A DNA stretch of 64,000 nt from Ornithinimicrobium cerasi (lineage in GTDB: Bacteria; Actinomycetota; Actinomycetes; Actinomycetales; Dermatophilaceae), in contig NZ_QZMN01000003.1 of NCBI RefSeq assembly GCF_003702705.1, positions 248,001 to 312,000 on the forward strand, written 5' to 3'. A program made the translations under genes and the position numbers. The notes under the pieces are model-generated. The model worked only from the letters and a program-made list of their open reading frames with translations. It searched no databases and had not been told where the DNA came from. Every line of letters begins with the position of its first letter. Positions within the stretch are counted from its first letter, which is position 1. Shown in pieces: positions 14,642 through 35,172 of the stretch.

Positions 14642-15961
14642 ATGACCCGCGACCTCGACCTGACCCTGTTCGGCGCGACCGGCTTCGTCGGGCGGCTGAC
14701 CGCCGAGCACCTGGCCGCGACGGTCCCCGACGGCGTCACGGTGGCGCTCGCGGGCCGGTCCGTCGCACGGCTGGAGGAGGTCCGCCGCGGACTCGGCCCC
14801 CGGGCCTCGGCCTGGCAGGTCGTGGTGGCCGACGCCCAGGACGTGGCCGGGCTGGAGGCGATGGCCGCCCGCTCACGGGTCGTGGTGTCCACGGTGGGGC
14901 CCTACCGGCGCCACGGCATACCCCTGGTCCTGGCCTGCGCACGTGCCGGCACGGACTACGCCGACCTCACCGGCGAGACCCTCTTCGTGCGCGAGGCGGT
15001 GGGGCGCGCGCACCCCACCGCCCGCCGGACCGGTGCGCGGATCGTCGTCTCGTGCGGCTACGACTCCGTGCCCTCCGACCTCGCGGTGCACCTGCTGCAC
15101 CGCAGGGCGGAGGAGGACGGCGCCGGCGGGCTGACCGACACCACCCTGGTCGCCAGGGCCAGCGGAGGGGTGAGCGGCGGCACCGTCGAATCCATGCGGC
15201 TGATGGTGCAGGAGCTCGCGGACGACCCCTCGCAGCGGGCGGTCATGGCCGACCCCGAGGCGCTCTCCGGAGGGGTGGCGGGTGCCCCCGGCCAGGAGGA
15301 CGTGTGGCGCCCCTTCGTGGAGGAGCGCACCGGCCGCTGGGTGGTGCCCTTCTTCATGGGGCCCTACAACACCCGGGTGGTGCGCCGCTCGAACGCCCTC
15401 ACCGGCCGCCGCTACGGGGAGCGCTTCCGCTACCGGGAGCTGATGGCGACCGGGCGCGGGGTGCGGGGCGCGGCGCGGGCGGCCGGCGTGGTCGCCGGGC
15501 TCGGCGCGCTCGCGGCCGGGATGGCGACCCCGGGGGTGCGCCGGGTGCTGGACCGCGCCCTCCCGTCGCCGGGGGAGGGGCCGAGCGCCCGGGTGCGGGA
15601 CAGCGGCTGGTTCCGGATGGAGACCACCACCACGACCGAGGACGGCACGAGGTATGCCGCGACCGTCGCCGCGCAGGGCGACCCCGGCTACCGCGCGACC
15701 GCGGTGATGCTGGGCCAGGCCGCCCTCGTCCTGGTGTCCACGCGCCGGGACGGGACGGCCGGCGAGGGAGGCGTGCTCACGCCGGCGGTGGCGCTGGGCG
15801 ACCGGCTCGTGGCGGCGCTGCGGGCCCAGGGTTTCACGCTCGAGGTGCGGCGCGAGGAGGCCGGGCGGTTTGGGGCCGCGGGTCAGGACTTGGTCAGGGT
15901 TCGGTCAGGGTTCGGTCAAGGCTTGGTAAGAAGGCTGGTGCCCGGGACCGGCCCGTCCTAG
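14642..15961 (+). CDS. Saccharopine dehydrogenase-like NAD(P)-binding protein (trans-acting enoyl reductase type)
   Basis: A 439-residue protein with an N-terminal Rossmann fold (LTLFGATGFVGRLTAEHL) and VVVSTVGPYRRHGIPLVLACARAGTDYADLTGE, the signature of the saccharopine-dehydrogenase-like proteins annotated as trans-acting enoyl reductases. A short hydrophobic stretch lies around residues 275-300 (AARAAGVVAGLGALAAGMA). Function is not established; in mycobacteria a homologue acts in lipid (phenolic glycolipid) synthesis. The conserved part ends near LEVRREEAGR. The last 26 or so residues (ending LVRRLVPGTGPS) are encoded by the 11-bp direct repeats of the next gene's promoter, and its TAG stop is the start of that gene's -10. 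The C-terminal tail is therefore probably a by-product of regulatory DNA. Confidence 0.75.
   Translation: MTRDLDLTLFGATGFVGRLTAEHLAATVPDGVTVALAGRSVARLEEVRRGLGPRASAWQVVVADAQDVAGLEAMAARSRVVVSTVGPYRRHGIPLVLACARAGTDYADLTGETLFVREAVGRAHPTARRTGARIVVSCGYDSVPSDLAVHLLHRRAEEDGAGGLTDTTLVARASGGVSGGTVESMRLMVQELADDPSQRAVMADPEALSGGVAGAPGQEDVWRPFVEERTGRWVVPFFMGPYNTRVVRRSNALTGRRYGERFRYRELMATGRGVRGAARAAGVVAGLGALAAGMATPGVRRVLDRALPSPGEGPSARVRDSGWFRMETTTTTEDGTRYAATVAAQGDPGYRATAVMLGQAALVLVSTRRDGTAGEGGVLTPAVALGDRLVAALRAQGFTLEVRREEAGRFGAAGQDLVRVRSGFGQGLVRRLVPGTGPS
15881..15935 (+). promoter_or_regulatory. Five 11-bp direct repeats upstream of first M14 gene
   Basis: Units begin at 15881, 15892, 15903, 15914 and 15925; the two central ones are identical (GGTCAGGGTTC). 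The array ends 23 bases before the -10 hexamer, covering the -35 region. Eleven-base direct repeats on one face of the helix are the binding pattern of OmpR/PhoB-type response regulators. A related array lies before the second M14 gene (35071-35136). Confidence 0.7.
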
Positions 15962-15964
15962 CGT
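15959..15964 (+). promoter_or_regulatory. -10 (TAGCGT) of the first M14 carboxypeptidase, leaderless
   Basis: TAGCGT lies six bases before the ATG. The stretch CCTAGCGTGCGGGCATGGA is identical at the second M14 gene. The TAG is the stop codon of the preceding gene. Confidence 0.65.
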
Positions 15965-15970
15965 GCGGGC

Positions 15971-17137
15971 ATGGACCGCACTGACCTCTCCCGCCGCTCC
16001 CTCCTCGGCCTCGGCTCGCTCGCCGCGCTCTCGATCCCGCTCGCCGGGGCGGGCACGGCCTCCGCAGCCCCCACCTTCCCCGACCCGGGCAGCAGCACGC
16101 CGCTCTCGGCGATCCGCAGCTACGGCGACATGGTCGACCAGCTGCAGGCGCTGGCGCGCAGCAGCCGCTTCCCGGTGACGGTGCGCACCCTCTCCCAGAT
16201 CGGCACCCAGGAGTCGCTCTCCGAGCAGGGACGCGAGCTGTATGTCGCGACCGTCGGCTCCGGAGCGACACCGGTCTGGGTCCAGGGCCGGATCCACGGC
16301 AACGAGCCCTACGGGCTGGACTCGACGATGAGCGTGCTCAGGAGCCTGGCGACCAGCGGTGCGGCACAGTGGGCACGGATCCGCGAGGAGTTCACCGTCC
16401 ACGTCATCCCGGTCTACAACCCCGACGGGTCCGAGGCGAACATCCGGGAGACCGTCCTGTGGGACCGGGCGGCCGACGCACCGCGGCTCGACGCGCAGGG
16501 ACGGCAGCAGCGGATCGACCTCAACCGGGACTGGTCGCCGACCGGCTTCGTGGCGCGAGAGTCGCTGGCCTGGTACGAGTACTGGACGAGGGTGAAGCCC
16601 GCCTACGCGCTGGACATCCACCACCAGGGCCTCAAGCGGGACTACGTGACGGGGGAGGAGATCACCTTCTCCCTCGGGATCTCCCTCGCCCCCGGCGGCC
16701 CGACGCTGCCGACGCTGGAGGGCGGCGCCTACGACGTGCTGACGAGGCAGATGCAGAGCCACGTGTGGCTGGAGACGAAGGACTACGGGTTCGTCGGTAT
16801 CGACAAGTACGACGTCGGCCACGGCACCGTGATCGACATCCGCGGCGGCGTGGTGTCGGCGATGATGCTGGGGCTGGACCACGCCGGCCTCAACCCGACC
16901 GGGCACAGCAACCCGGCGGTCTTCTTCGAGACCTCGGGCAACACCCGCGACGGCAACATCGGGCACAAGGCCCGCGGGAAGATGGTGCGGCAGAACGTCC
17001 TCGGCCTGACCGCCTGGCTCGACGGCCTGGCGGACGGGTCGGTGTTCCAGGTGGACCCGACGATCTGGGACGACCAGATCCCGGGGACGCCCGTCCTGCG
17101 CTACCTCACCGACTGGGGCGGCGTGATCCCGGCCTGA
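15971..17137 (+). CDS. Tat-exported M14 zinc carboxypeptidase
   Basis: A 388-residue exported metallopeptidase. The N-terminus SRRSLLGLGSLAAL with a hydrophobic core and cleavage near TASAAP is a Tat-type signal. The M14 zinc site is complete: His109 and Glu112 in RIHGNEPYG and the third ligand His in DIHHQG (217/218). YNPDG, DLNRDW (substrate Arg) and the catalytic Glu320 in FFETSG are also present. M14 enzymes release C-terminal residues from peptides or cut peptidoglycan peptides outside the cell. The gene is probably transcribed as a leaderless mRNA from a promoter with five 11-bp repeats, shared with the second M14 gene at 35173, which encodes a related but clearly diverged protein. Confidence 0.9.
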   Translation: MDRTDLSRRSLLGLGSLAALSIPLAGAGTASAAPTFPDPGSSTPLSAIRSYGDMVDQLQALARSSRFPVTVRTLSQIGTQESLSEQGRELYVATVGSGATPVWVQGRIHGNEPYGLDSTMSVLRSLATSGAAQWARIREEFTVHVIPVYNPDGSEANIRETVLWDRAADAPRLDAQGRQQRIDLNRDWSPTGFVARESLAWYEYWTRVKPAYALDIHHQGLKRDYVTGEEITFSLGISLAPGGPTLPTLEGGAYDVLTRQMQSHVWLETKDYGFVGIDKYDVGHGTVIDIRGGVVSAMMLGLDHAGLNPTGHSNPAVFFETSGNTRDGNIGHKARGKMVRQNVLGLTAWLDGLADGSVFQVDPTIWDDQIPGTPVLRYLTDWGGVIPA

Positions 17138-17151
17138 GGTGGGCGACCTGA

Positions 17152-17157
17152 CACGAT
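17152..17157 (+). promoter_or_regulatory. Leaderless -10-like hexamer (CACGAT) before the amber-containing ORF
   Basis: CACGAT followed by six bases and ATG at 17164, the same geometry as at other leaderless starts here. It marks 17164 as the original start even though the next codon is TAG. Confidence 0.4.
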
Positions 17158-17178
17158 GAGGGCATGTAGCTCATCGTC

Positions 17179-17484
17179 GTGAAGTTCCCCGTCCGGCCCG
17201 AGTCCGTCGAGCGCTGGACGGACGTCGTCGCCGACTACACGGCTGCGTGCCGCGCGGAGGAGGGCAACATCTTCTTCGAGTGGTCCCGCAGCGTCGAGGA
17301 CCCGTCCGAGTTCGTGCTCGTCGAGGCGTTCACCGACGAGGGCGCGGCCGCGCACGTGCAGAGCCCCCACTTCCAGCAGGGGATCGACGCGATGCGGCCG
17401 CACCTGTCGGCCACCTCGAGGATCGTGTCCCGACGGGTGGACGGTGACGGCTGGGAGGAGATGGGCGAGCTGCGGATCGGGTGA
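17179..17484 (+). CDS. Antibiotic-biosynthesis-monooxygenase (ABM) domain protein with amber codon 2 at its natural start
   Basis: The ABM fold protein reads VKFPVRPESVERWTDVVADY onward, 101 residues, with the typical EEGNIFFEWSRS and SPHFQQGIDAM segments of putative quinol monooxygenases. These are small cofactor-free dimers. In the same frame, ATG at 17164 is followed at once by TAG and then CTC ATC GTC GTG AAG. The family usually begins M-x-(L/F)-IVVKF, so the ancestral start is almost surely 17164 with codon 2 now amber. The start given is the GTG at 17179, which has no Shine-Dalgarno. Either translation restarts there on a leaderless message, the TAG is read through, or the gene is inactive. 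The rest of the frame is intact, suggesting a recent change or a sequencing error. Confidence 0.65.
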   Translation: MKFPVRPESVERWTDVVADYTAACRAEEGNIFFEWSRSVEDPSEFVLVEAFTDEGAAAHVQSPHFQQGIDAMRPHLSATSRIVSRRVDGDGWEEMGELRIG

Positions 17485-17498
17485 TCGGCCGCGGGGGC

Positions 17499-17575
17499 GT
17501 CACGCCGAACGGGCACACCTGACCCGGTCCTGGGCGGATGCGCCCGGATCTGCAGATGTGCCCGTCCGGCGTGAC
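17499..17575. terminator. Long nested inverted repeat between convergent genes
   Basis: Arms at 17499-17517 and 17557-17575 pair over 19 bases with one mismatch (outer GTCACGCCG, inner ACGGGCACA). Inside lie a second hairpin GGGCG-GATG-CGCCC (17532-17545) and a palindrome ATCTGCAGAT (17548-17557). It sits between two convergent genes and is the best bidirectional-terminator candidate in the window. No T-run is present. Confidence 0.7.
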
Positions 17576-17586
17576 AGCGGACGGCG

Positions 17587-18240
17587 TCAGTTGGCGATGC
17601 CTCCGCACAGCACCGGCAGGGTGGCCTCGAGCGGCGCCTGGTCCGTCAGCTCCGAGGGACCGGCGTCGAAGTCGTAGGTACCGCTGGTGTTGAGGTCGAT
17701 CCCGTGCACGACGACCTGCGCGGTGTCGGCGTTGGCCAGCGAGTCCCCGTTCACGAAGGTCCTCGTGTAGCTCAGGCGGCCGTCGGCGTCGGCGACCGGG
17801 AAGCGGTCGAGCGCGAGGGCGCTGCTCGGGCTCGTGTCGCCCGAGGTGGTGAGCGAGGCGATGATGCCGCCGTAGGAGGGCGCCCCCTCGATGACGTTGA
17901 CGAGGCCGTTCCCGTCGCTGTCCGCGGCGGGGCCGGGGCAGCCGAGGTCGGCCTGGTCGGTGAAGCCGTGCAGGTGCATCGCGTGGGGAAGGAGCGGCGC
18001 CAGACCCCAGGCCTGCACGCTCACCTGCACCTTGCCGTTGGGCAGCGCCGTGATGCGGGTCGACCCGCCCGCCTGGCTGTTGGGGACCGACTCCGCCTGG
18101 ACGGGCGCGAGCCCGTAGGCGTAGGTCGCGACCCGCTCCGACGGGTTGCGGTCGTGCCCGGCCGAGGCCGGGGCGGCGGCACCCACCGCGGTGACGGCGG
18201 CGACGACGGCGAGGCTGGAGAGAGCTGCGCGGACCTTCAT
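17587..18240 (-). CDS. Secreted CHRD-domain protein
   Basis: A 217-residue exported protein: signal peptide to about residue 27 (VGAAAPASA/GHDR), then a CHRD (chordin-like) beta domain recognisable from TRITALPNGKVQVSVQAWGL, PHAMHLHGFTDQ and VVVHGIDLNTSGTYDFDAG. The paired histidine motifs (HAMHLHG, VVVHG) are standard in bacterial CHRD proteins. Function is unknown; such proteins are extracellular and sometimes bind metals. GGAG six bases upstream supports the ATG. It diverges from the MFS gene with about 115 bases between, and converges on the ABM gene across the nested inverted repeat. Confidence 0.85.
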   Translation of the reverse strand: MKVRAALSSLAVVAAVTAVGAAAPASAGHDRNPSERVATYAYGLAPVQAESVPNSQAGGSTRITALPNGKVQVSVQAWGLAPLLPHAMHLHGFTDQADLGCPGPAADSDGNGLVNVIEGAPSYGGIIASLTTSGDTSPSSALALDRFPVADADGRLSYTRTFVNGDSLANADTAQVVVHGIDLNTSGTYDFDAGPSELTDQAPLEATLPVLCGGIAN

Positions 18241-18343
18241 GATCACTCCTTCGTGGATCGGGCGACGTCCTGTCGCCCTGGTAGGAGGTCTTCGGAGCCG
18301 TGGGCCGGGGCGGATTGGACGCACGTGCCGCTGAACCGCCACC

Positions 18344-18349
18344 TAGGCT
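18344..18349 (+). promoter_or_regulatory. Leaderless -10 (TAGGCT) of the MFS gene
   Basis: TAGGCT lies six bases before the GTG at 18356; no Shine-Dalgarno is present. Confidence 0.55.
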
Positions 18350-18355
18350 TCGGCT

Positions 18356-19669
18356 GTGCGGTGGAGCGGTGAGGGGAGCAGCGCCCGCCTGATGCTCGGC
18401 GCCAGCGCGCTCACCACCCTCGGCGCCATCCCCCCGTTCCTCGTCGGCGCCCAGGCGGTCCTGCTGATGCGGGACCTCGACTTCGGTCCGGCCGGGCTCG
18501 GGCTGGCGGTGAGCACCTTCTTCGCCGTGGCGGCGCTGGTGACGATCCTGGGCGGCTCGCGCCTGGAGCGGTGGGGCGACCCGGCAGGCCGGCTCGTGGC
18601 CGGCCTGCTCGTCGCGACCGGGGGCCTGGGTCTGGCGCTGCTCGTCCGGGACTGGCCCTCCCTCGTCGCGGCGATGGCCGTGCTGGGCGCCGGCAACGCG
18701 ACCTGCCAGGGCACCTCCAACCGGACCGTCGCCACCGCCCTGCCGCCCCACCGCCGCGGCCTGGGGTTCGGCGTCAAGCAGAGCGCGGTGCCGGCCGCCA
18801 TCATGCTCGGCGGCCTCGCCGTGCCCACGACGACGGCGGCGCTGGGCTGGCGCAGCACCTTCGTCGTCACCGGCCTCCTCGGTGTCCTGCTCGCGTTCAC
18901 CGCCCTGACCTCCGCGCTGGCCGGCCGGCGCCGGCACCGCAGGACCGCGGCCGCTCGGCCCGGGGACGGTGCCGGGGCCGTCCCGGGGCGAGGTGGACGG
19001 CATACCCCCGAGGACCGGGACCGGGCGCCGTGGGGACCTCTCCTGCTGTGCGGGGTGGCCATCACCTTCGCCAGCGCCGCGGCGAACTTCCTCGGCGCCT
19101 ACCTCGCGAGCTGGGCGCACGAGGTGGGGCTGACCATCGGCCAGGCCGGCCTCCTGATGGCGGCAGGCTCCGGCAGCTCGGTCCTCGTCCGCGTCGTCAG
19201 CGGGCTGCGCGCCGACGCCCGGCACGGCGGCAACCTGTCGGTCGTCGCGGCGATGATGCTGTCCGGGGCGGCGTGCCTGGCCCTGATCGGCGCGGTGCCG
19301 CAGGTGTGGAGCGTGCTGCTGTTCGGCTTCCTGGCCTTCGCGGTCGGCTGGTCCTGGCCCGGCCTGATGCTGTATGCCGTGGCGCGGGTGGGGCGGGACG
19401 CGCCCACCCAGGCGTCCTCGGTCGTGCAGGCCGGTGCCTTCGTCGGCGGTGCCCTCGGCCCGGTCGGGTTCGGCCTGCTCGTCGCGGGCCTCGGCTTCCG
19501 CGGCGCCTGGGAGGCCGCCGCGGCGGCCCTCCTCGTGGCCGGAGTGCTCACCCTCCTCGCCCGGCACGGCTTCCGGCGGGACCTGCGCGAGCGCCCGCCG
19601 ACGGAGCCGTTCGCCTACGGCGGAGGTCGGCGGAGCCCCCGCTTCGTCACGAGGACCCGGGGCGGCTAA
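18356..19669 (+). CDS. MFS transporter
   Basis: A 437-residue membrane transporter with two blocks of about six hydrophobic segments separated by a basic and acidic central loop (ALAGRRRHRRTAAARPGDG to RDRAPWG, roughly residues 185-225). RLERWGDPAGR after the second segment matches the MFS loop 2-3 motif, and the repeated GLGFGVKQSAVPAAIMLGG region resembles the CynX/NimT-type branch. The substrate is unknown. The GTG start is supported by a TAGGCT hexamer six bases upstream, a leaderless arrangement. Its TAA stop is reused as the -10 of the thioesterase gene. Confidence 0.85.
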   Translation: MRWSGEGSSARLMLGASALTTLGAIPPFLVGAQAVLLMRDLDFGPAGLGLAVSTFFAVAALVTILGGSRLERWGDPAGRLVAGLLVATGGLGLALLVRDWPSLVAAMAVLGAGNATCQGTSNRTVATALPPHRRGLGFGVKQSAVPAAIMLGGLAVPTTTAALGWRSTFVVTGLLGVLLAFTALTSALAGRRRHRRTAAARPGDGAGAVPGRGGRHTPEDRDRAPWGPLLLCGVAITFASAAANFLGAYLASWAHEVGLTIGQAGLLMAAGSGSSVLVRVVSGLRADARHGGNLSVVAAMMLSGAACLALIGAVPQVWSVLLFGFLAFAVGWSWPGLMLYAVARVGRDAPTQASSVVQAGAFVGGALGPVGFGLLVAGLGFRGAWEAAAAALLVAGVLTLLARHGFRRDLRERPPTEPFAYGGGRRSPRFVTRTRGG

Positions 19670-19672
19670 CCT
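19667..19672 (+). promoter_or_regulatory. Leaderless -10 (TAACCT) made from the MFS stop codon
   Basis: TAACCT, whose TAA is the MFS stop, lies seven bases before the ATG at 19680. Confidence 0.5.
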
Positions 19673-19679
19673 CCGCCCC

Positions 19680-20081
19680 ATGGAACCTGCGACCCGGGGC
19701 CCCGCCTCGTCGAGCTTCTCCGACCACCTGGGTGTGCACGACGTCGAGGTCGGCACGGATCGCGCCGTCACCCGGATGGCCGTCACGGACGCGCTCGCCA
19801 ACCGCAACGGCGTGCTCCACGGCGGCGCGCTGATGTCGCTCGTGGACCACTGCGCCGGCACGCTCGCCTTCGCGCTCTGCCCGCCCGGGTTCACCAACGT
19901 GACGCTCGAGGCCAAGACCAACTTCTTCCGCAAGGCCCGCGTCGACGACACGGTGACCGCGGTGGCCACGCCGCTGCACGTCGGCCGGACGACGCTCGTG
20001 GTCCAGGTCGTCACCACCCGCGGGGACGGCAAGGAGGTCTCGGCGACCACCCAGACCCAGCTGTTCCTCGAGTGGTCCTAG
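19680..20081 (+). CDS. PaaI-type hotdog thioesterase
   Basis: A 133-residue hotdog-fold protein of the PaaI group. The sequence NRNGVLHGGALMSLVDHCAGTLAF contains the HGG active-site turn and the following Asp on the long helix, and NVTLEAKTNFFRKARV is the matching substrate-tunnel strand. Such enzymes hydrolyse acyl-CoA, often aryl-acetyl-CoA. It has its own leaderless promoter from the MFS stop codon and converges on the D-2-hydroxyacid dehydrogenase gene. Confidence 0.88.
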   Translation: MEPATRGPASSSFSDHLGVHDVEVGTDRAVTRMAVTDALANRNGVLHGGALMSLVDHCAGTLAFALCPPGFTNVTLEAKTNFFRKARVDDTVTAVATPLHVGRTTLVVQVVTTRGDGKEVSATTQTQLFLEWS

Positions 20082-20106
20082 CCCCCGGGGCAGCGGGACG
20101 GGGCCC

Positions 20107-22968
20107 TCACGGCCTGGTCGCCACCTCCAGCAGCTCGAGGACGTGCTGGTAGGGACGCCCGGTGGCTCGCGTCAGCCCCAGCTCGCAGGTCCGGTTGTTG
20201 GACACGTAGGCGGCGTACTCCCGCCCCGCCACCTCCGCCGCCTCGGGCGCGGTCGCGGCGGCGGTCAGCTCCGGGTGCAGCATGCCCCGGTCCCCGGCGA
20301 AGCCGCAGCACCCCCACGCGACCGGCACCGTGACGTCGTCGCTGACGTGCCGGGCCACCCGGACGAGCGCGTCGGTGGTGCCCAGGTGGGTGCTCGAGCA
20401 GGTCGGGTGGACGACGACCGGCCCGGTCGCCGCGGTCACCGGGAGCCGGTCCAGGAGCGTGTCGGCGACCCACGCGGTCGCGTCGACGACCCGGATCTCC
20501 CGGTAGGCCGGATCGCTCCCCAGCATCTGCACGAGCCCCTCGGCGCACGAGGCCGCCTCGCAGACCACCGGCAGCGCTCCTGCCTCGCTCGCCCCGAGCA
20601 GGGCGGGGAGCACCCGGGCGGCCATCGCGGCATACCCGCCCCGGCGCCCCTTGGACTTCCACGGTGTCCCGCAGCAGAGCCCGCCGACCCCGTCCGGGAC
20701 CCGCAGACCCACCCCGGCGCGCCCGGCCAGGGCGACGAGCGCCCGCTCGGCGCCGACACCGCCGGTGGCCGGCTCGGGCCCGAACATCGTGCCCACGCAG
20801 GGGGCGAAGTGCACCGCCGCGGCCCCGGGCACGGCCCCGTCGGTCCCGCCACGCCGCGGTCCGCCCCGAGGCAGCCCCCGGTCGTAGCGGGGGAGCGCGT
20901 CGTGGTCGACCACCGTGCGGCCCGCGCGGGTCAGCAGCGACGGCACCTGGGGGAGCACCCGTGCGGCGGTCAGGGCCGCCGACGCGGCGACCGTGCCGGC
21001 CCCCCACACCCGTGCCGCACCCCGCCACGCGACCTCCCCGACCGGCCCGGAGGCCTCGGCCCGCAGCCGGCGGGTGAGGTCGCCGGTGTTGATGAGGACC
21101 GGGCAGACCGTCAGGCACATCCCGTCGACAGCGCAGGTGTCGGTGCCGTCGTACTCGTACTGCTCGGCCAGCTCGGCCGCCAGGGCGTCGTCGCCGCGCA
21201 GCTGGGCCGCCCGCATCTCCCGCCGCACCACGATCCGCTGGCGGGGTGTCGTCGTGACGTCCCGCGAGGGGCAGACCGGCTCGCAGAACCCGCACTCGAC
21301 GCACCGGTCGACCTCCGCCTCGACCGTCGGGGCGGTCTTGAGGTCCGCGAGGTATGACGTGGGGTCGTCCGAGAGGACCGACCCGGGGTTGAGCACGCCC
21401 CGGGGGTCGAGCAGCCGCTTGAGCTCGCACATCACCTCGTAGAGCTCGTCGCCGTACTGCCGCCGCACGAACGAGGCCATGATCCGCCCGGTCCCGTGCT
21501 CGGCCTTCAGCGACCCGCCCTCGCCGAGCACGAGGTCGACCATGTCCTCGGTGAAGGCCTCGTAGCGGGCCATCGACGCCGGGTCGGCGAACTGCTCGTT
21601 GAGCATGAAGTGGACGTTGCCGTCGCGGGCGTGGCCGAAGATGACCGACTCCGGGTAGGCGTGCCGCTCGAACATCTCGGTCAGCGCCAGGATGGTGTCG
21701 CCGAGCCGGTCGACGGTGACGACGACGTCCTCGAGGAGCGCGTTGGTGCCCGCCGGCCGCGCCCCGGCGACCGCGCTGTAGAGCCCCTTGCGCACCCGCC
21801 ACAGGCCGGCGCGCTCCACCGGGTCGCGCGTCAGCGAGACCGGCACGGTGAGCGGGAGGTGGCCGAGCTCACCCTGCACGCGCGCGACGGTCTCCTCCAG
21901 GCGCGCCCGGTCGTCGTCCTGCCACTCGACTAGGAGCGCGGCGTGGTCGACGACCTCGAGGTCGGCGATCAGCCTGGGGCACAACGGGTCCTGCGCCGAG
22001 ACGCGCAGCGACGCCGCGTCGAGGAGCTCGGCCGTCGCTGTCCCGGCAGCGACGAGCTCCGGCACCGACCCGGTCGCGCGCACGACGTCGTCGAAGACGA
22101 GCAGCCCGGTCGCCACGTGCGGGCGCACGGGCACCGTCCGGAAGGTCGCCGACGCGACGAACCCCAGCGTCCCCTCGCTGCCCACCATCAGCCGGGCCAG
22201 GATCTGGGCCGGCTCGTCGAAGTCGAGGAAGGCGTTCACGCCATACCCCATGGTGTTCTTCAGCGCGAAGAGGCGACGGATCGTCGCGACCGAGCCCGCG
22301 TCGCCACGCACCCGGTCCCGCAGCCTCAGCAGCCCCTCGTGCACGTCCGGCGCGGCCGCGCGCAGCTGCCCGGCGGCCCCCGGGTCGCCCGTGTCGAGGA
22401 CCACCCCGGTCGGCAGGACGACCACGAGCGACTCCAGCGTGGCGTAGGTGTTGGCCTCCGTACCGCACTGCATCCCCGAGGAGTTGTTGGCCACCACGCC
22501 GCCCACCGTGCAGGCGCTCTCGCTGGCCGGGTCGGGGCCCAGCCGGCGGCCGTGCCGCGCCAGCAGCGCGTTCACCCGGCCGACGGTCACCCCCGGCCCG
22601 ACCCGCACCCGGGCCCCGTCGTCGAGCACCTCCACGTCGCGGAAGTGCCGACGCACGTCGACCAGGACCGTGTCGGTCACGGCCTGACCGGACAGGCTGG
22701 TGCCGCCCGCGCGGAAGGTGAGGCTGGTGCCCGCGCGGTCGCACGCGGCCATCACCGCGGCCACCTGGTCCCGGTCCCCGGGCCGCACCACGAGCTCCGG
22801 GACGAGCAGGTAGTGCGAGGCGTCGTGGGCGAGCGCGTAGCGGTCGAGGGCGCGCGAGGACACCCGCCCCTCGCCCAGGGAGGCGGCCAGCTCCTCCTCC
22901 AGCCGGGCCCACCCGCCCGCCGGGCCGCGGTCCAGGTCGTGGTCGTGGTCGTGGCTCGCTCGGTCCAT
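20107..22968 (-). CDS. FAD-linked D-2-hydroxyacid (D-lactate-type) dehydrogenase with Fe-S and CCG domains
   Basis: A 953-residue fusion oxidoreductase, probably oxidising D-lactate or D-2-hydroxyglutarate and passing electrons through iron-sulfur clusters to quinones at the membrane. Order of domains: a PCMH-type FAD-binding domain (VVRPGDRDQVAAVMAAC, FRAGGTSLSGQ, GGVVANNSSGMQCG), an FAD-oxidase C-terminal domain (GHARDGNVHFM, KAEHGTGRIMASF), two ferredoxin-like cluster motifs (CVECGFCEPVCP and CAVDGMCLTVCP) and two CCG half-domains (GLCCGTPW, WGCCGFAGD). GAGGAG just before the ATG supports the start. The histidine/aspartate-rich HDHDHD near the N-terminus is an oddity that could bind metal. 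It stands alone on the minus strand between two thioesterase genes. Confidence 0.9.
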   Translation of the reverse strand: MDRASHDHDHDLDRGPAGGWARLEEELAASLGEGRVSSRALDRYALAHDASHYLLVPELVVRPGDRDQVAAVMAACDRAGTSLTFRAGGTSLSGQAVTDTVLVDVRRHFRDVEVLDDGARVRVGPGVTVGRVNALLARHGRRLGPDPASESACTVGGVVANNSSGMQCGTEANTYATLESLVVVLPTGVVLDTGDPGAAGQLRAAAPDVHEGLLRLRDRVRGDAGSVATIRRLFALKNTMGYGVNAFLDFDEPAQILARLMVGSEGTLGFVASATFRTVPVRPHVATGLLVFDDVVRATGSVPELVAAGTATAELLDAASLRVSAQDPLCPRLIADLEVVDHAALLVEWQDDDRARLEETVARVQGELGHLPLTVPVSLTRDPVERAGLWRVRKGLYSAVAGARPAGTNALLEDVVVTVDRLGDTILALTEMFERHAYPESVIFGHARDGNVHFMLNEQFADPASMARYEAFTEDMVDLVLGEGGSLKAEHGTGRIMASFVRRQYGDELYEVMCELKRLLDPRGVLNPGSVLSDDPTSYLADLKTAPTVEAEVDRCVECGFCEPVCPSRDVTTTPRQRIVVRREMRAAQLRGDDALAAELAEQYEYDGTDTCAVDGMCLTVCPVLINTGDLTRRLRAEASGPVGEVAWRGAARVWGAGTVAASAALTAARVLPQVPSLLTRAGRTVVDHDALPRYDRGLPRGGPRRGGTDGAVPGAAAVHFAPCVGTMFGPEPATGGVGAERALVALAGRAGVGLRVPDGVGGLCCGTPWKSKGRRGGYAAMAARVLPALLGASEAGALPVVCEAASCAEGLVQMLGSDPAYREIRVVDATAWVADTLLDRLPVTAATGPVVVHPTCSSTHLGTTDALVRVARHVSDDVTVPVAWGCCGFAGDRGMLHPELTAAATAPEAAEVAGREYAAYVSNNRTCELGLTRATGRPYQHVLELLEVATRP

Positions 22969-23058
22969 CGTCTCTCCTCGCCCGCCGCGCCGGCACGCAC
23001 CGTCGCGTGGGGTCCATTAGACCCCCGACCGGGTGCGTCGTGGGGCGACGCGGCTGGG

Positions 23059-23064
23059 TAGCGT
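23059..23064 (+). promoter_or_regulatory. Leaderless -10 (TAGCGT)
   Basis: TAGCGT ends seven bases before the GTG at 23072, the same hexamer as used before both M14 genes. Confidence 0.55.
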
Positions 23065-23071
23065 GCAACCC

Positions 23072-23602: not shown

Positions 23603-23644
23603 GGGGCTCGGGTATGCCGCGGGCCGGGGACCGCCGCCCGGCGC

Positions 23645-23668
23645 CGGACCTCCTCGGACGCCGGTCCG
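23645..23668. terminator. Weak hairpin between convergent thioesterase and NhaC genes
   Basis: CGGACC (23645-23650) and GGTCCG (23663-23668) form a 6-bp stem with a 12-base loop in the convergent gap. It is short and GC-rich sequence makes such stems by chance. Confidence 0.3.
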
Positions 23669-23670
23669 CC

Positions 23671-25281: not shown

Positions 25282-25312
25282 CGGGGGCCGCCTTCGCACG
25301 TGGGGGTGAGTC

Positions 25313-26604: not shown

Positions 26605-26675
26605 GTCCGAAGTAAACCACCCCCCCTTGGGTACGGGACAGGTCAGAACAGTGACTAGAACATCCTCACTTTTGC

Positions 26676-26704
26676 TTGACGCCCGACATAAGGGTGCGTA
26701 GCGT
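26676..26704 (+). promoter_or_regulatory. Promoter TTGACG-N17-TAGCGT of the sugar importer operon
   Basis: The -35 TTGACG is at 26676-26681 and the -10 TAGCGT at 26699-26704, with exactly 17 bases between. The ATG at 26712 starts seven bases after the -10, so the transcript should begin at or next to the start codon. Confidence 0.75.
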
Positions 26705-26711
26705 TCCGCGC

Positions 26712-28241: not shown

Positions 28242-29284
28242 CGACGACCGACGCGCCGCAGACGCCGGCCGAGGGCCCCGCCCCCGAGCGGGGGCACGAG
28301 GACGCCGGGACCCGTCGGCGGGGGCTGCCCTCCCTCGGTGGCCTCGGCCGCGACCTCGGCCTCATCCTCGCGCTCGTCGCCCTCGTGGTCCTGGGCGGCG
28401 CCACCTCGGGCGAGCGCTTCCTCAGCGTGGGCAACCTGATGGTGATCCTGCAGCAGGCGGCGATCATCGGCGTGCTGAGCATCGGCGTCACCTTCGTCAT
28501 CACCTCGGGCGGGATCGACCTGTCGGTCGGCTCGGTGATGGGGCTGGCGACGGTGTGGGCCTCGACGCTGGCCACCCAGACCATGGCCCAGGACATCCAC
28601 TGGGTCGTCATGATCTTCGCCGCGCTGGCGGTCGGCACGGCCGCCGGGGTCATCAACGGTCTCATCGTGGCCTACGGCAACGTGGTCTCGTTCATCGCGA
28701 CGCTCGCCATGCTCGTCGCCGCCCGCGGCCTGGCCGAGATCATCTCCGACCGGCGCACCCAGATCGTCCGGGTCGACCCCTTCCTCGACGCCTTCCGCGG
28801 CTCCGTCCTGGGGGTGCCGGTCATCGTCTGGATCTTCGTGCTCGTCGCCGCGGCCGGCTGGTTCCTGCTGAACCGCACCACCTTCGGCCGCCGCACGGTC
28901 GCGATCGGCGGCAACCCGGAGGCCGCCCGGCTGGCGGGCATCAAGATCCGGCGGCACACCGTCATGGTGTTCGCGCTCAGCGGGCTGACCGCGGGGATCG
29001 CCGGCGTGATGATGCTGGCCCGGACCACCGCCGGCACCTCCACCAACGGCTACCTCTACGAGCTCGACGCGATCGCCGCCGTCGTGGTCGGCGGCACGCT
29101 GCTCATCGGCGGGCGCGGCACGATCATCGGCACCGTCCTCGGCGTCCTCATCTTCGCCACGCTGTCCAACCTCTTCATCCAGAACAACCTCTCGATCTCC
29201 GCGCAGTCGTTGGCCAAGGGCGCGATCATCGTCGTCGCCGTCCTGCTGCAGCAGCGCTTCGCGGCCCGGTCGCGCTCGTCCTAG
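28238..29284 (+). CDS. Sugar ABC transporter permease, CUT2 (RbsC type)
   Basis: A 348-residue permease with about nine hydrophobic segments. FVITSGGIDLSVGSVMGLATV is the RbsC signature, and GRRTVAIGGNPEAARLAGI plus GRGTIIGTVLGV are also typical. The first 40 residues are a hydrophilic, Pro/Glu-rich tail. Translationally coupled to the ATPase. Confidence 0.92.
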   Translation: MTTTDAPQTPAEGPAPERGHEDAGTRRRGLPSLGGLGRDLGLILALVALVVLGGATSGERFLSVGNLMVILQQAAIIGVLSIGVTFVITSGGIDLSVGSVMGLATVWASTLATQTMAQDIHWVVMIFAALAVGTAAGVINGLIVAYGNVVSFIATLAMLVAARGLAEIISDRRTQIVRVDPFLDAFRGSVLGVPVIVWIFVLVAAAGWFLLNRTTFGRRTVAIGGNPEAARLAGIKIRRHTVMVFALSGLTAGIAGVMMLARTTAGTSTNGYLYELDAIAAVVVGGTLLIGGRGTIIGTVLGVLIFATLSNLFIQNNLSISAQSLAKGAIIVVAVLLQQRFAARSRSS

Positions 29285-29386
29285 CGACCCCGACCCGGTG
29301 AGGGACGGCATACCCGCTCCCCACCCACCCCCGACCCCCGTGACCGCCAGAGCCAACCCGCACCATCCCGTCAAAGGAGACCCACC

Positions 29387-30454
29387 ATGGCACGCACCAC
29401 CCGAGTCCGCCGAGCCTCCCGCGCCGCCGCAGTCCTGTCGGCCGTCGCGCTGCTGGCCGCCTGCACCGGCAACACCGAGGCGGAGGTGAGCGGTGAGGAC
29501 GACGAGGGGCAGGCCTCCGAGGAGGCGGCGCCCGCGCCGGGCAGCAACGACGAGACCGGTGAGACGGTCGTCATCGGCTTCTCCGCCCCCGCCGCCGACC
29601 ACGGCTGGATGGGCGCGATCACCCAGGCCGCGATCGAGGAGGCCGAGAGCCACGAGGACGTCGAGCTGAGGGTCGCCGAGGGCACCAACGACGTGAACCT
29701 GCAGATCTCCCAGGTCGAGACCTTCATCAACGACGGCGTCGACGCGATCGTGCTGCTGCCCTTCGACGGGGCGGCGCTCACCGAGATCGCCACCGAGGCG
29801 ATGCAGGCCGGCATCCCGGTCATCAACGTGGACCGCGAGTTCAGCGCACCCGAGGCGGCCCGCGTCACGGTGCTCGGCGACAACTACGGCATGGGCCGCA
29901 GCGCCGGCGAGTACATCTGCGAGCGGCTCGCCGACCAGCCCGACGCCGTCGTGGCCGAGGTCGCCGGCATCGACAACCTGCCCCTCACCCAGGAGCGCAG
30001 CCAGGGCTTCGAGGACGCCCTCGGCGAGTGCGGTCTGGACGTCGACAACCGCGTCGCCGCCGACTTCACCGTGCAGGGCGGCGAGTCGGCCACCTCCAAC
30101 CTGCTGCAGGCGGCGCCGGAGATCGACGCGATGTGGAACCACGACGACGACCAGGGCGTCGGCGTGCTCGCCGCGATCGAGAACGCCGGGCGCGACGAGT
30201 TCTTCGTCGTCGGCGGTGCGGGCTCGGCCAACATGATGCGCGAGATCCAGTCCGGCGACAGCGTCGTGGAGGCCACCGTCATCTACCCCTCGACGCAGGC
30301 CGCCGACGGCATCCGGCTCGCGCGCCTCGTCGCGCAGGGCAAGGGCATGGGCGACCTCGTCGAGATCGAGGTGCCCCGCCTCGTCCAGCTCTACGCCCCG
30401 GTCGTCACCGCGGACAACGTCGACGAGTACCTCGACACCGCGTTCGAGTCCTGA
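29387..30454 (+). CDS. Substrate-binding lipoprotein, ribose/galactose-binding type
   Basis: A 355-residue periplasmic-binding-protein-type lipoprotein: signal peptide with lipobox LAAC (Cys26), an acidic linker, and the type 1 binding fold (VVIGFSAPAADHGWMGAIT, DAIVLLPFDGAAL, GIPVINVDREF, IDAMWNHDDDQGVGVLAAI). AAAGGAG eight bases upstream supports the ATG. It completes the CUT2 importer. The ligand cannot be read from sequence, although partners downstream (Idh/MocA dehydrogenase and TIM-barrel isomerase) suggest a polyol, inositol or modified sugar. Confidence 0.92.
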   Translation: MARTTRVRRASRAAAVLSAVALLAACTGNTEAEVSGEDDEGQASEEAAPAPGSNDETGETVVIGFSAPAADHGWMGAITQAAIEEAESHEDVELRVAEGTNDVNLQISQVETFINDGVDAIVLLPFDGAALTEIATEAMQAGIPVINVDREFSAPEAARVTVLGDNYGMGRSAGEYICERLADQPDAVVAEVAGIDNLPLTQERSQGFEDALGECGLDVDNRVAADFTVQGGESATSNLLQAAPEIDAMWNHDDDQGVGVLAAIENAGRDEFFVVGGAGSANMMREIQSGDSVVEATVIYPSTQAADGIRLARLVAQGKGMGDLVEIEVPRLVQLYAPVVTADNVDEYLDTAFES

Positions 30455-30531
30455 TCCACGCCGGACCCGGCCGGTGCGAGGCCACCGGCCGGGTCCGCCG
30501 CACCACGACCCAGCACGTCAGAGAGGACACG

Positions 30532-31749
30532 ATGAGCAACGCCGACGGCCGGCTGCGGGTGGCCATGATCGGGCACGCCTTCATGGGCCGGGCCCACTCC
30601 CAGGCCTGGCGGGTGGCGCCCCGCTTCTTCGACCTGCCCCGCGAGCCGGTGATGCAGGTCCTGGTGGGCCGGTCCCCGGACCGCGCCGAGGAGGCGGCCC
30701 GGCAGCTGGGCTGGGCCGAGGCGCAGACGGACTGGCGCGCCGTCCTGGAGCGGGACGACGTGGACCTGGTGGACATCTGCACACCCGGCGACACGCACGC
30801 GGAGATCGCGGTCGCCGCCCTCGAGGCGGGCAAGCACGTGCTCGTGGAGAAGCCGATGGCCAACACGCTCGACCAGGCCGAGCGGATGACGCAGGCCGCC
30901 GAGCGGGCAGCCGCCCGGCAGGTCTGGTCGATGGTGGGGTTCACCTACCGACGCGTCCCGGCGGTCGCGCTGGCACAGCGCCTCGTCGCGGAGGGCCGGA
31001 TCGGGGAGGTGCGCCAGGTGCGCTGCCAGTATCTGCAGGACTGGCTCGCCGACGAGCAGGCGCCGGGTTCGTGGCGCACCGACAAGGCGCTGGCGGGGTC
31101 GGGGGCGCTGGGTGACATCGGCGCCCACATCGTCGACCTGACCCACTTCATCACCGGGCAGCGCGTCGCCGGGGTGTCGGGCATGCTCGACACGATCGTC
31201 GCCGAGCGACCGGTGGCGCAGGACGTCCCGGTCCCCGGCCTCGGTGGCGTGGCCGGCGCCGACCGTGCCCCGGTCACGGTGGACGACGTCGCGATGTTCA
31301 CCGGCCGCCTGGAGTCCGGGGCCCCGTGCGTCTTCGAGGCCACCCGGATGGCGTGGGGCCGCAAGAACGCCATCCGCGTGGAGGTGAACGGGTCGACCGG
31401 CTCGCTGGCCTTCGACTTCGAGGACATGAACGTCCTGCACCTCTACGACGCGTCGGCGCCGGCCGCCGAGCAGGGTTTCACCCGCATCTACGTCACCGAG
31501 GCCGACCATCCCTACGTCGCGGCCTGGTGGCCGCCGGGCCACGGGCTGGGCTACGAGCACGGCTTCGTCCACCAGGTGGTGGACCTGGTCACGGCCGTGG
31601 CCGACGGGGAGCAGCCGCGCCCGTCCTTCGCGGACGGCCTGACCGTCCAGCGGGTGCTGGACGCGGTCGAGCGCTCGAGCCAGGACGAGGGCCGCTACAC
31701 CACGACGGGGACGACCAGGCCCGTACGGCATACCGAAGGAGAGAGCTGA
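30532..31749 (+). CDS. Gfo/Idh/MocA family oxidoreductase
   Basis: A 405-residue NAD(P)-dependent sugar or polyol dehydrogenase. The Rossmann core [15 protein letters not shown] (residues 13-27) shows the GxxxxG nucleotide loop in the order of this family, [31 protein letters not shown] carries the EKP catalytic lysine and [16 protein letters not shown] the substrate Asp/His. It oxidises a ligand hydroxyl or acts as an epimerase partner. GAGAGG eleven bases upstream supports the start, and its stop overlaps the next gene by one base. Confidence 0.88.
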
Positions 31750-32753
31750 TGTCCCGACCGATCACGCTTTTCACCGGCCAGTGGGCCGACCTGCCGTTCG
31801 AGGAGGTGGCGCGCCTGGCCTCCGAGTGGGGCTACGACGGGCTCGAGATCGCCTGCTGGGGCGACCATCTCGACCCGTGGCAGGGTGCCGAGGACGACGC
31901 CTACATCCAGGGCAAGAAGGACGTGCTGGAGAGGTACGGCCTGCAGGTGTGGGCCATCTCCAACCACCTCAAGGGTCAGGCCGTCTGCGACGACCCGATC
32001 GACGAGCGGCACCGGGGGATGCTGTCGGAGCGCGTGTGGGGCGACGGCGACCCCGAGGGCGTGCGGCAGCGGGCCGCCGAGGAGATGACGCTGACCGCGC
32101 GCACCGCGGCCCGGCTGGGCGTGAAGACCGTGATCGGCTTCACCGGCTCCTCGATCTGGAAGTACGTCGCGATGTTCCCGCCCGTGTCGCAGGAGCTCGT
32201 CGACGCCGGCTACCAGGACTTCGCCGACCGGTGGAACCCGATCCTCGACGTCTTCGACGAGGAGGGCGTGCGGTTCGCGCACGAGGTGCACCCCTCGGAG
32301 ATCGCCTACGACTACTGGACCACCCAGCGGGCGATGGAGGCGATCGGGCACCGCGAGGCCTTCGGGCTCAACTGGGACCCGAGCCACTTCGTCTGGCAGG
32401 ACCTCGACCCGGTCGGCTTCCTCTGGGACTTCAAGGACCGGATCTACCACGTCGACTGCAAGGACGCGAAGCTCCAGGTCGGCAACGGCCGCAACGGCCG
32501 GATGGGGTCGCACCTGGCGTGGGCGGACCCCCGGCGAGGGTGGGACTTCGTCTCGACGGGCCACGGCGACGTGCCGTGGGAGGCGTGCTTCCGGATGCTC
32601 AACGCGATCGGCTACGACGGTCCGATCTCGGTGGAGTGGGAGGACGCGGGCATGGACCGCCTGGTCGGGGCCCCGGACGCCCTGGAGTTCGTCCGGCGCT
32701 CGCTCTTCGACGCACCGACCGCCGCCTTCGACGCCGCCTTCAGCACGCGCTGA
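31749..32753 (+). CDS. Sugar phosphate isomerase/epimerase-like TIM barrel (AP endonuclease 2 superfamily)
   Basis: A 334-residue xylose-isomerase-like TIM barrel: [66 protein letters not shown] and YHVDCKDAK supply the usual metal-binding Glu/Asp/His positions, and [10 protein letters not shown] closes the site. Members are inosose dehydratases, tagatose/psicose epimerases and similar enzymes. It is the last gene of this importer operon and is directly coupled to the Idh/MocA gene, the standard pairing for oxidation and isomerisation of polyols. The substrate is not known. Confidence 0.85.
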
Positions 32754-32860
32754 GGCTCGGCCCGGTGGTGGGGGCGGTGCCATGATGGGCGTGGTGTGGC
32801 GGCGCGACCTCCGTCACGACCGGCGCCCAGCTTCCTCCAGCCCAGCACGGGGTGACGCAG

Positions 32861-33625
32861 ATGCAGATCGACCTCAACTCCGACCTCGGCGAGGGTCTGG
32901 GCAGCTGGCGGATGGGCGACGACGAGGCGCTGCTGGGCATCGTCACGAGCGCGAACGTCGCCTGCGGCTTCCACGCCGGTGACCCGCCCATCATGCGGGC
33001 GGTCACCACGATGGCCGCGGCGCGCGGGGTGGCCGTCGGCGCCCACGTCGCCTACCGCGACCTCACCGGTTTCGGCCGGCGGTTCATCGACATGGAGCCG
33101 GACGTGCTCACCGACGAGGTCGTCTACCAGATCGGCGCGCTCGACGGCATGGCCCGGCGCGCGGGCCACCGGGTCACCTACGTCAAGCCGCACGGCGCCC
33201 TCTACAACGCGGTCGTGACGCACGAGGAGCAGGCCGCCGCGGTCGTGCGGGCCGTGCGCGAGTACGACGCCGACCTCGTCCTCGTGGGGCTGCCCGGCTC
33301 CGTCGTGCTCCGGCTCGCCGTGGAGGCGGGTCTGCGCACCGCTCGCGAGGCGTTCGCGGACCGGGCCTACACGCCGGAGGGGCAGCTCGTGCCGCGCACC
33401 CGTCCTGGCGCCGTCCTGCACGACCGGGAGCTGATCGCCCGGCGGTGCGTCGCGATGGCGACCGGGGAGCCGGTAGCTGACGTCAACGGCGACCCGCTCA
33501 CGGTGCACCCGGACTCCCTCTGCGTCCACGGCGACACCCCCGGGGCGGTCGGGATCGCCCGTGCGGTGCGGGCGGCGCTCCAGGGCGCGGGCGTGACGCT
33601 GGCCCCGTTCGTCGCGACGGTCTGA
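32861..33625 (+). CDS. pxpA: 5-oxoprolinase subunit A (LamB/YcsF family)
   Basis: A 254-residue subunit of the ATP-dependent 5-oxoprolinase that opens pyroglutamate to glutamate. IDLNSDLGEGLGSWRMGDDEALLGIVTSANVACGFHAGDP is diagnostic, as are VKPHGALYN and EAFADRAYTPEGQLVPR. The start is placed at ATG 32861 because the family begins M-x-IDLN and GGGGTGA lies a few bases upstream; a GTG nine bases earlier is also in frame. The pxpB gene follows three bases after the stop. A CATGAT hexamer at 32781 could mark the promoter, with a leader of about 70 bases. Confidence 0.92.
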   Translation: MQIDLNSDLGEGLGSWRMGDDEALLGIVTSANVACGFHAGDPPIMRAVTTMAAARGVAVGAHVAYRDLTGFGRRFIDMEPDVLTDEVVYQIGALDGMARRAGHRVTYVKPHGALYNAVVTHEEQAAAVVRAVREYDADLVLVGLPGSVVLRLAVEAGLRTAREAFADRAYTPEGQLVPRTRPGAVLHDRELIARRCVAMATGEPVADVNGDPLTVHPDSLCVHGDTPGAVGIARAVRAALQGAGVTLAPFVATV

Positions 33626-33628
33626 GGC

Positions 33629-34237
33629 GTGCGCGTCCTGCCGAGCGGCTCCCGCGGGCTGCTGCTGGAGCTGGACTCCCTCGAGGAGGTCCTGGCCCGT
33701 TACGCCGCGCTCCGGGAGGTCGACCTCCCGGTCCTGGACCTCGTCCCGGCCGGACGCACGATCCTCGTCGTCGCCGACCGGGGCACCGACCTGCGCGCCC
33801 TGGAGCAGCGGGTCCGGGCGGTCGCGCCGGTCGAGCACGCCGGCGCCGACCTGGACCCCGTCGAGGTGCCGGTGCGCTACGACGGGGAGGACCTGCACGA
33901 GGCGGCCGACCTGCTCGCGTGCTCGGTGGAGGAGCTGGTGCGCCGACACCGCGAGGAGGCGTGGACGGTCGCGTTCTGCGGATTCGCCCCCGGCTTCGCC
34001 TACCTGCGCGGCACCCGGTCCGGCTGGGACACCCCTCGCCGCACCTCCCCGCGGACCCGTGTGCCGGCCGGTGCGCTGGCCCTCGCGGGGGAGTTCACCG
34101 CCGTCTACCCGCGGGAGTCGCCGGGCGGCTGGCAGCTCATCGGCCACGCCCTCGTGCCGATGTTCGACCTCCACCGCGACCCGCCCTCGCTGCTGCTGCC
34201 CGGCACCCCGGTGCGTTTCGTGGAGGCCCGGGTATGA
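33629..34237 (+). CDS. pxpB: 5-oxoprolinase subunit B
   Basis: A 202-residue carboxyltransferase-type subunit (KipI/AHS1 domain), recognised by FCGFAPGFAYLRGT, TPRRTSPRTRVPAGALALAG and GGWQLIGHAL. It starts with GTG and is translationally linked with pxpA and pxpC (overlap of four bases with the latter). Together the three subunits form the complex found across bacteria. Confidence 0.92.
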   Translation: MRVLPSGSRGLLLELDSLEEVLARYAALREVDLPVLDLVPAGRTILVVADRGTDLRALEQRVRAVAPVEHAGADLDPVEVPVRYDGEDLHEAADLLACSVEELVRRHREEAWTVAFCGFAPGFAYLRGTRSGWDTPRRTSPRTRVPAGALALAGEFTAVYPRESPGGWQLIGHALVPMFDLHRDPPSLLLPGTPVRFVEARV

Positions 34238-35097
34238 CGTCGCTCACCGTGGTGGAGCCCGGCACCCTCACCACGGTCCAGGACTTCGGCCGGCCGGGGC
34301 AGGCGGCCCTGGGCGTCGGTCGCTCGGGCTGCTGCGACCGCGGGGCGCACCGGCTGGCCAACGCCCTGGTCGGCAACCACCCCACGCTGGCGACCCTGGA
34401 GGTCACCCTCGGCGGGCTCGTGCTGACCGCCGACGGGGACGTCGTCGTCGCCACCACCGGGGCACGCTGCCCGGGGGTGCCCCACCTGGGCCCCTTCTCC
34501 CTGGGACCGGGGGAGGAGCTGCGCCTCGGCATACCCGCGGCCGGCCTGCGCACCTATGTCGCGGTGCGCGGCGGCATCGACGTGGAGCCGGTGCTGGGCA
34601 GCCGCTCCACCGACGTGCTCGCCGGGCTCGGCCCCCCGGTGGTCGCGGCTGGCGACCGGCTCCCGGTGGGCACCACCCCCCGGCCGGTGCCCGGGGTGGA
34701 CGTCGCCGCGGTCCCGGAGCCGACCGGCGACCTGCTCACCGTGCCGGTGACCCCCGGCCCCCGCCGCGACTGGTTCGACGACGCCCAGTGGCGGCGGCTC
34801 CTCGAGCAGGCCTGGACCGTCGACCCGCGGTCCGACCGCGTCGGCGCGCGGCTGGTCGGCGATCCGCTGGTCCGCACCCGCGAGGGCGAGCTGACGAGCG
34901 AGGGGATGCTGCGCGGCGCCCTGCAGGTCCCGCCGTCGGGTCTGCCCGTGCTCCTCCTCGCGGACCACCCGGTGACCGGTGGCTACCCCGTCATCGGCTA
35001 CGTCGACGACGAGGCGGTCGACCGGTGCGCCCAGCTGCGACCGGGCCAGCAGGTGCGGTTCACGTCGCTGCGTCAGGACGCGGCCAGGGAGCGGTAA
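34234..35097 (+). CDS. pxpC: 5-oxoprolinase subunit C (KipA/AHS2 biotin-dependent-carboxyltransferase fold)
   Basis: A 287-residue subunit with the AHS2 domain: TVVEPGTLTTVQDFGRPG at the N-terminus, GVGRSGCCDRGAHRLAN, and LTSEGMLRGALQVPPSGLPVLLLADHPVTGGYP near the end. The ATG overlaps the pxpB stop. The last coding bases (35071-35097) already show the 11-base periodicity of the repeats that precede the second M14 gene, so the 3' end doubles as regulatory DNA. Confidence 0.92.
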   Translation: MTSLTVVEPGTLTTVQDFGRPGQAALGVGRSGCCDRGAHRLANALVGNHPTLATLEVTLGGLVLTADGDVVVATTGARCPGVPHLGPFSLGPGEELRLGIPAAGLRTYVAVRGGIDVEPVLGSRSTDVLAGLGPPVVAAGDRLPVGTTPRPVPGVDVAAVPEPTGDLLTVPVTPGPRRDWFDDAQWRRLLEQAWTVDPRSDRVGARLVGDPLVRTREGELTSEGMLRGALQVPPSGLPVLLLADHPVTGGYPVIGYVDDEAVDRCAQLRPGQQVRFTSLRQDAARER

Positions 35098-35136
35098 AGA
35101 CCTGGTCAGGGTTCGGTCTGGGTTGCGTCAGAAGCC
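35071..35136 (+). promoter_or_regulatory. Six 11-bp direct repeats upstream of second M14 gene
   Basis: Units begin at 35071, 35082, 35093, 35104, 35115 and 35126. The unit at 35104 (GGTCAGGGTTC) is identical to two units of the first array; others diverge (e.g. GGTCTGGGTTG, CGTCAGAAGCC). The array again stops about 24 bases before the -10, at the -35 position. Confidence 0.65.
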
Positions 35137-35160
35137 TGGTCAGGGGCCCGTCGACCTGCC

Positions 35161-35166
35161 TAGCGT
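35161..35166 (+). promoter_or_regulatory. -10 (TAGCGT) of the second M14 gene, leaderless
   Basis: TAGCGT, six bases, then ATG at 35173, with the same bases around it as at the first M14 gene. Confidence 0.65.
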
Positions 35167-35172
35167 GCGGGC

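Follow-up and report, generated by a model that had tools for sequence, protein, structure and literature searches.

A probable tandem 11-bp operator, apparently undescribed, at promoters of secreted hydrolase genes in Ornithinimicrobium

Results

Two M14 carboxypeptidase genes behind 11-bp repeat arrays

The window, i.e., the whole 64,000-nucleotide stretch of Ornithinimicrobium cerasi DNA that was analysed (G000:C43:248001-312000, where G000 is the organism's own genome), contains two M14 carboxypeptidase-type genes, denoted A and B, each preceded by a tandem array of 11-bp units (Table 1). Genes were called with a simple in-house caller, which places some starts wrongly. Both proteins have SRRSL N-termini and HGNE motifs and are 26.6% identical over 380 alignment columns. 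The closest named matches to protein A, at 78-80%, are from Serinicoccus sediminis, an uncultured Serinicoccus and O. sediminis. Gene B follows directly upon three 5-oxoprolinase genes (LamB/YcsF, CT_C_D and CT_A_B), which we take to be pxpABC-like; in several relatives (G011, G012 and others) this place is occupied by an RNA-like stretch and a DNA ligase gene. In G016, the A-like and B genes adjoin each other.

The units of array A start at 15881, 15892, 15903 and 15914, with a weaker fifth at 15925. The array overlaps the 3' end of an upstream ORF in our gene call, the stop codon of which is the TAG of the TAGCGT element. Array B consists of units at 35071 (CGTCAGG), 35082 (GGCCAGG), 35093 (GGTAAAG), 35104 (GGTCAGG), 35115 (GGTCTGG) and 35126 (CGTCAGA), and extends across the stop codon of CT_A_B (pxpC-like), the next gene upstream. 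A preliminary description of this DNA had reported tandem 11-bp units at both genes, which was correct, although array B, with its six units, is longer than it stated. Reading both promoters also bore out the TAGCGT-N6-ATG arrangement that it described after each array, as well as the identical bases: CCTAGCGTGCGGGCATGGA is common to the two promoters and starts, which align well from the fourth unit to ATGGA. The geometry of the gene A promoter suggests a leaderless start.

The arrays before the two twin-arginine M14 genes exceed chance, as shuffle and spacing controls in the window were near zero. A two-unit 22-mer with at most three mismatches matched the window four times, compared to a mean of 0.01 in 100 shuffles. 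At a score of 13/14, there were six matches at a spacing of 11 (five in arrays A and B and one at 57049), and none or one at each of the other spacings, 8-10 and 12-16. The match outside the arrays is a single two-unit site on the minus strand (57049-57066, 13/14). The regulator and pstS loci (247,119 bases) gave one match at a spacing of 11 and 0 to 6 at each of the others. A 20-mer search of the own genome with at most three mismatches found the promoters of A and B only (control, 0).

Table 1. Positions of genes, arrays, promoter elements, other targets and RNA-like loci. Plain numbers are window positions.
Feature	Position	Strand	Description
Array A	15881..15935	+	Five 11-bp units, GGTCARG-N4 type; last weak (GGTAAGA)
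-10 of gene A	15959..15964	+	TAGCGT, 27 bp 3' of last 7-mer
Gene A	15971..17137	+	M14 carboxypeptidase-type, twin-arginine N-terminus; Pfam Peptidase_M14 match; own-genome target (array A)
LamB/YcsF, CT_C_D, CT_A_B genes	32861..35097	+	5-oxoprolinase; gene B directly behind
Array B	35071..35136	+	Six 11-bp units, fit decreasing; spans stop codon of upstream gene
-10 of gene B	35161..35166	+	TAGCGT, 28 bp 3' of last 7-mer
Gene B	35173..36210	+	M14 carboxypeptidase-type, twin-arginine N-terminus; Pfam Peptidase_M14 match; own-genome target (array B)
Third M14 gene	C63:124858		Own-genome target; divergent from weakly matching choice-of-anchor-B/LVIVD protein
Fourth M14 gene	C43:236949		Own-genome target
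M36 fungalysin	C7:110783-110833		Own-genome target; five units
Cyanophycinase/S51-like gene	C43:340706		Own-genome target; signal peptide; below NCBIfam cut-off
LVIVD-repeat protein	C80:171930-171969		Own-genome target
RNA-like stretch	L424, L425, L427, L429, L430, L433, L434, L435, L438, L440, L441, L444, L446		Loci in relatives

Occurrence of the array in the genome, genus and order

With one mismatch allowed, GGTCARG-N4-GGTCARG matched the own genome 36 times, compared to 6 for the reversed pattern. Across 32 genomes of the genus, the counts were 732 and 225, and the pattern exceeded its control in 30 of them; in G009 and G021 the two counts were equal (7 vs 7 in G021). A tighter pattern, GGTCARGRNTYGGTCARG, gave 63 matches vs 7 in the 18 genomes searched and was present in 17 of these. 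The three-unit pattern had 16 matches at eight places in the own genome, vs two for the control.

We then compared promoters of M14 genes with background. The M14 set comprised 35 genes: A, B, L110 (found via its array) and 32 from a protein search, most M14-like proteins of 800-1300 aa from that search being left out. An array pair scoring at least 13/14 was present within 300 bp upstream of 14 of these genes, while the other 21 scored below 13 and had no strong array. Excluding A, B and L110, 11/32 M14 genes had an array, vs none of 181 background genes taken from the regulator and pstS loci (Fisher p = 1.6e-10; p values assume independent promoters, and some are orthologous).

In an order-wide search, 70 of 149 genomes had a match, mostly few per genome, and the control matched too. 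Outside the family, most of the matches inspected could be put down to chance or stand before genes of other kinds; in family f8, arrays recur, likewise ahead of other genes. In G178, from another genus of the same family, a three-unit array precedes an M4 peptidase gene followed by an M28 peptidase gene.

Phase relative to the -10 element

The position of the arrays relative to TANNNT elements was analysed in 101 arrays from genus loci, which clustering by flank reduced to 91. Within 75 bp on the CTTGACC side there were 30 TANNNT elements, and 20 of them fall at 10 mod 11 bp, i.e., 10+11k (binomial p = 1.8e-14, uncorrected for the choice of phase). These 20 belong to some ten kinds of target, several of which occur in two or more species, and are not all independent. 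On the GGTCARG side, 8 of 17 lie at 5 mod 11 (27+11k, with gaps of 27, 38, 49 and 71; p = 5e-5). Random anchors placed at most three TANNNT elements in any one phase, of about 3.4 in total. Gene A keeps the forward phase (27), while gene B (28) and the own M36 promoter (11) are each off by one.

The commonest form, found in 19 operators, is SYTGACC-N4-CYTKACC-N4-NCATACC-N4-CTTKRCC-N10-TA-G-S-G/T-T. A composite pattern of operator and -10 element had 25 matches in 16 of the 32 genomes, with none for the control: 7 at M14 genes, 1 at the own cyanophycinase-like gene, 1 at an M36 gene, 14 of the RNA/ligase type (one of the 25, L437, was assigned from its coordinate only) and 2 others, G030:C13 and G031:C4, which have no TAGCGT and are probably due to chance. 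Direct repeats of 11 bp in two or more units and a fixed helical placement near the -35/-10 region were thus both observed, supporting the preliminary interpretation of the arrays as a putative tandem operator of the OmpR/PhoB kind, whose end lies immediately 5' of the -35 position.

Targets of the array

In the own genome, the array stands before genes for hydrolases that carry signal peptides (Table 1). Two three-unit places (C32:50988 and C59:129869) and other pair-pattern matches stand outside this list. The shared regulon proposed earlier for the two enzymes is supported and proves wider, taking in the M36 fungalysin, the cyanophycinase-like protein, the LVIVD protein and further M14 genes. 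In relatives, arrays precede genes for M14, M36, M28 and M1 peptidases, a DUF6351 protein, a GDSL lipase, an LVIVD protein, a polysaccharide deacetylase with cell-wall-binding repeats, an ATP-dependent DNA ligase, and a protein of 190-280 aa that has an OmpR-type winged helix but lacks a receiver domain by Pfam. Some of these are not secreted enzymes, namely the ligase and an M1 aminopeptidase with no visible signal peptide.

Arrays were expected in the orthologous promoters of relatives, and this held in part. Arrays do precede the A-like genes in G007, G016, G022 and G031, but they point the other way; in G012 and G018, the A-like genes do not rise above background, with no array at a score of 13. 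The B orthologues in G016 and G011 have kept a TAGCGT near the start, but their units have decayed. Since the arrays are flipped, absent or decayed at these genes, the two window promoters probably came to resemble each other only recently in this lineage, inside an older regulon, through promoter duplication or parallel change.

An RNA-like stretch next to the DNA ligase gene

Thirteen of the composite matches were aligned and share an operator followed by about 160-190 nt closed by a strong GC-rich hairpin. The stretch adjoins the ATP-dependent DNA ligase gene in 12 of the 13 and is one gene away in G028. Of 26 predicted base pairs, six have both partners changed; four of these belong to the hairpin and two to an outer stem, although one of the latter two is broken in 4/13 sequences. 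There was no family match in Rfam, either at the gathering threshold (12 loci) or at E up to 2 (7 loci). An automated length pattern was too narrow and found 5 of the 13. The window does not contain the stretch, and no composite match of the RNA/ligase type was found in G000. Judged from its conservation and terminator-like end, the stretch is probably a small RNA, transcription being presumed.

Candidate regulators

G000 encodes eight full OmpR-type proteins and five more divergent winged-helix matches. Within 1.5 kb of these 13 genes there were two weak sites only (12/14), tying no regulator to the array. Among the regulators, MtrA alone was named by NCBIfam above the cut-off, and it is present in the genomes classified. 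We proceeded by elimination, which took in RegX3, R170, R172, R173, R174 and CutR and left in MtrA and GlnR. R170 and R172, which are like M. tuberculosis PhoP, have CACAG/CCAG repeats at their own promoters by eye; for R172, these CCAG/CACAG repeats were seen by eye near the start upstream of L172, L333, L343, L351 and L360. R174 has GAAGATCTG repeats at its own promoter (by eye), and the CutR site differs from the array. R173 is not among the eight regulators (E up to 1e-15) of G022, which bears arrays, and was not among the 10 of 11 regulators examined in array-bearing G016. RegX3/PhoP was rejected on its own PHO boxes, which stand at pstS in place of the array.

By elimination, the reader may be R171 (G000:C66:186619), which has its own sensor kinase; we name it as a tentative candidate. 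R171 is present in all seven array-bearing genomes classified (G000, G004, G013, G016, G018, G022 and G028), G013 counting as array-bearing by the loose pattern only (32 vs 10; tight pattern, 0). It occurs in G021 too, a genome without enrichment of the motif. Its recognition helix resembles that of RegX3, a likeness that would fit a shared TCA core. In a search of solved structures, R171 was nearest to RegX3 and R173 to PrrA, and neither result settled the reader.

We considered the possibility that the array is read by a SARP-type activator, in which a winged helix is joined to a BTAD domain. SARP operators are heptamer direct repeats with an 11-bp period near the -10 element and have a TCGAG-type consensus. 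The reverse form of the array resembles such sites, with heptamers, 4-bp spacers and an end 10 bp before the -10. The candidate is a 308-aa protein (G000:C1:100086) that matches both BTAD and Trans_reg_C and whose gene adjoins a receiver-domain gene; just upstream is CTTTACC-N4-CTTTACC (12/14), 9-10 bp before CAGAGT. However, this site is weak, and about 0.1 such site would be expected by chance near the 13 winged-helix genes (estimated from 325 matches). Furthermore, in the forward form 27 bp separate the array from the -10, and we know of no SARP operator in a second orientation with a 27-bp gap. We regard a SARP-type reader as unlikely, although it is the chief alternative to R171.

An orphan, receiver-less winged-helix family of the OmpR type reached 85 bits or more in 20 of 28 genomes. 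Its genes (L218, L222, L231, L298-L317) usually adjoin one for a secreted S8 protease, and several genomes have fur and catalase genes nearby. An orphan winged-helix gene near upp, with an array-like site close by, also occurs in two further families of the order (L257 and L396). The receiver-less protein could itself be the reader, controlling its own gene and the rest, as its promoter has an array in forward phase (gap 27 or 49) in G002, G004, G026 and G028 and the protease is its usual neighbour. It was, however, not found at 85 bits or more in G000 and G016, both of which bear arrays, which rejects it as sole reader; it fits better as a target, and as the reader it is very unlikely.

The preliminary description had likened the arrays to PhoP boxes and suggested phosphate or envelope stress as a signal. 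The PHO unit, GtTCAccnnnn (PMC6754071), does have the 11-bp period and the TCA core in common with the array. In the 11 genomes with a pstS match, however, the pstS promoter is at most two mismatches from a PHO-box pair (exact in G000, G012 and G029), with GTTCACC-type boxes, and has no GGTCARG pair of at least 13/14; G018 has one of 12. Nor was any phosphate gene seen among the annotated targets, and a reading by RegX3/PhoP is highly improbable.

That the likeness of A and B is a local promoter duplication, with repeats formed by slippage and no regulator, is scarcely credible: the two genes are neighbours in G016, their promoters align closely and relatives of A carry the array in the other orientation, but unrelated genes carry it in both orientations at a fixed helical phase, which refutes this as a full account, although duplication may explain the 19 identical bases of the two promoters.

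Discussion

What the DNA shows directly is a unit that repeats every 11 bp, recurs across the genus ahead of secreted peptidases and other hydrolases, and keeps a fixed helical phase to the -10 in either orientation. We consider it likely that a winged-helix activator with the OmpR/PhoB fold uses the arrays as tandem operators at promoters of secreted hydrolases. We infer that the factor activates, that it belongs to a two-component system, and which regulator it is. Such an activator would bind successive GGTCARG-N4 units in head-to-tail order, with one unit to each helical turn, and would aid RNA polymerase at promoters with a TAGNNT-type -10. In relatives, the operator would also drive the terminator-ended stretch and the orphan winged-helix gene that usually lies beside the S8 protease, which could give the regulon a post-transcriptional and a feed-forward branch.

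The operator can be compared to known systems. The PHO boxes of PhoP in Streptomyces and PolR in Microlunatus are 11-bp direct repeats with an OmpR-type reader (PMC6754071, PMC2605767). They share the direct repeats and the TCA core with the array, but the PHO unit is GTTCAC rather than GGTCARG, and it serves phosphate genes rather than secreted peptidases; the own genome has separate PHO boxes at pstS. MtrA sites (PMC5650626) are likewise two short direct repeats for a conserved OmpR-type regulator, whereas the MtrA targets named there, bldD and whiI, differ, a comparison made by description. CutRS/CssRS of Streptomyces is similar in that a two-component system controls exported proteases; in contrast, the CutR site is TAWATAAA and the targets are HtrA-type quality-control proteases (PMC12802291). 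No description of the motif or regulon was found in the open-access literature, among the matches listed. The operator thus appears to be real and conserved, and new, though built on a known kind of DNA recognition, and the regulon of secreted hydrolases is apparently undescribed as far as our searches went.

Taken together, our reading is of a genus-wide and partly family-wide regulon for extracellular proteolysis, with an operator working in two orientations, each at its own helical phase, that drives a small RNA and a receiver-less regulator, and with R171 and its kinase, a conserved but uncharacterised two-component pair, as the reading system; in this complete form we put it forward with less than even confidence. 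The triggers of protease secretion in non-model actinobacteria are poorly known, and here one 11-bp word and one phase rule would predict targets from DNA. The two-orientation phase rule would also supply naturally occurring data on the contact between RNA polymerase and tandem winged-helix activators. An unexpected branch of the regulon would be the RNA-like stretch.
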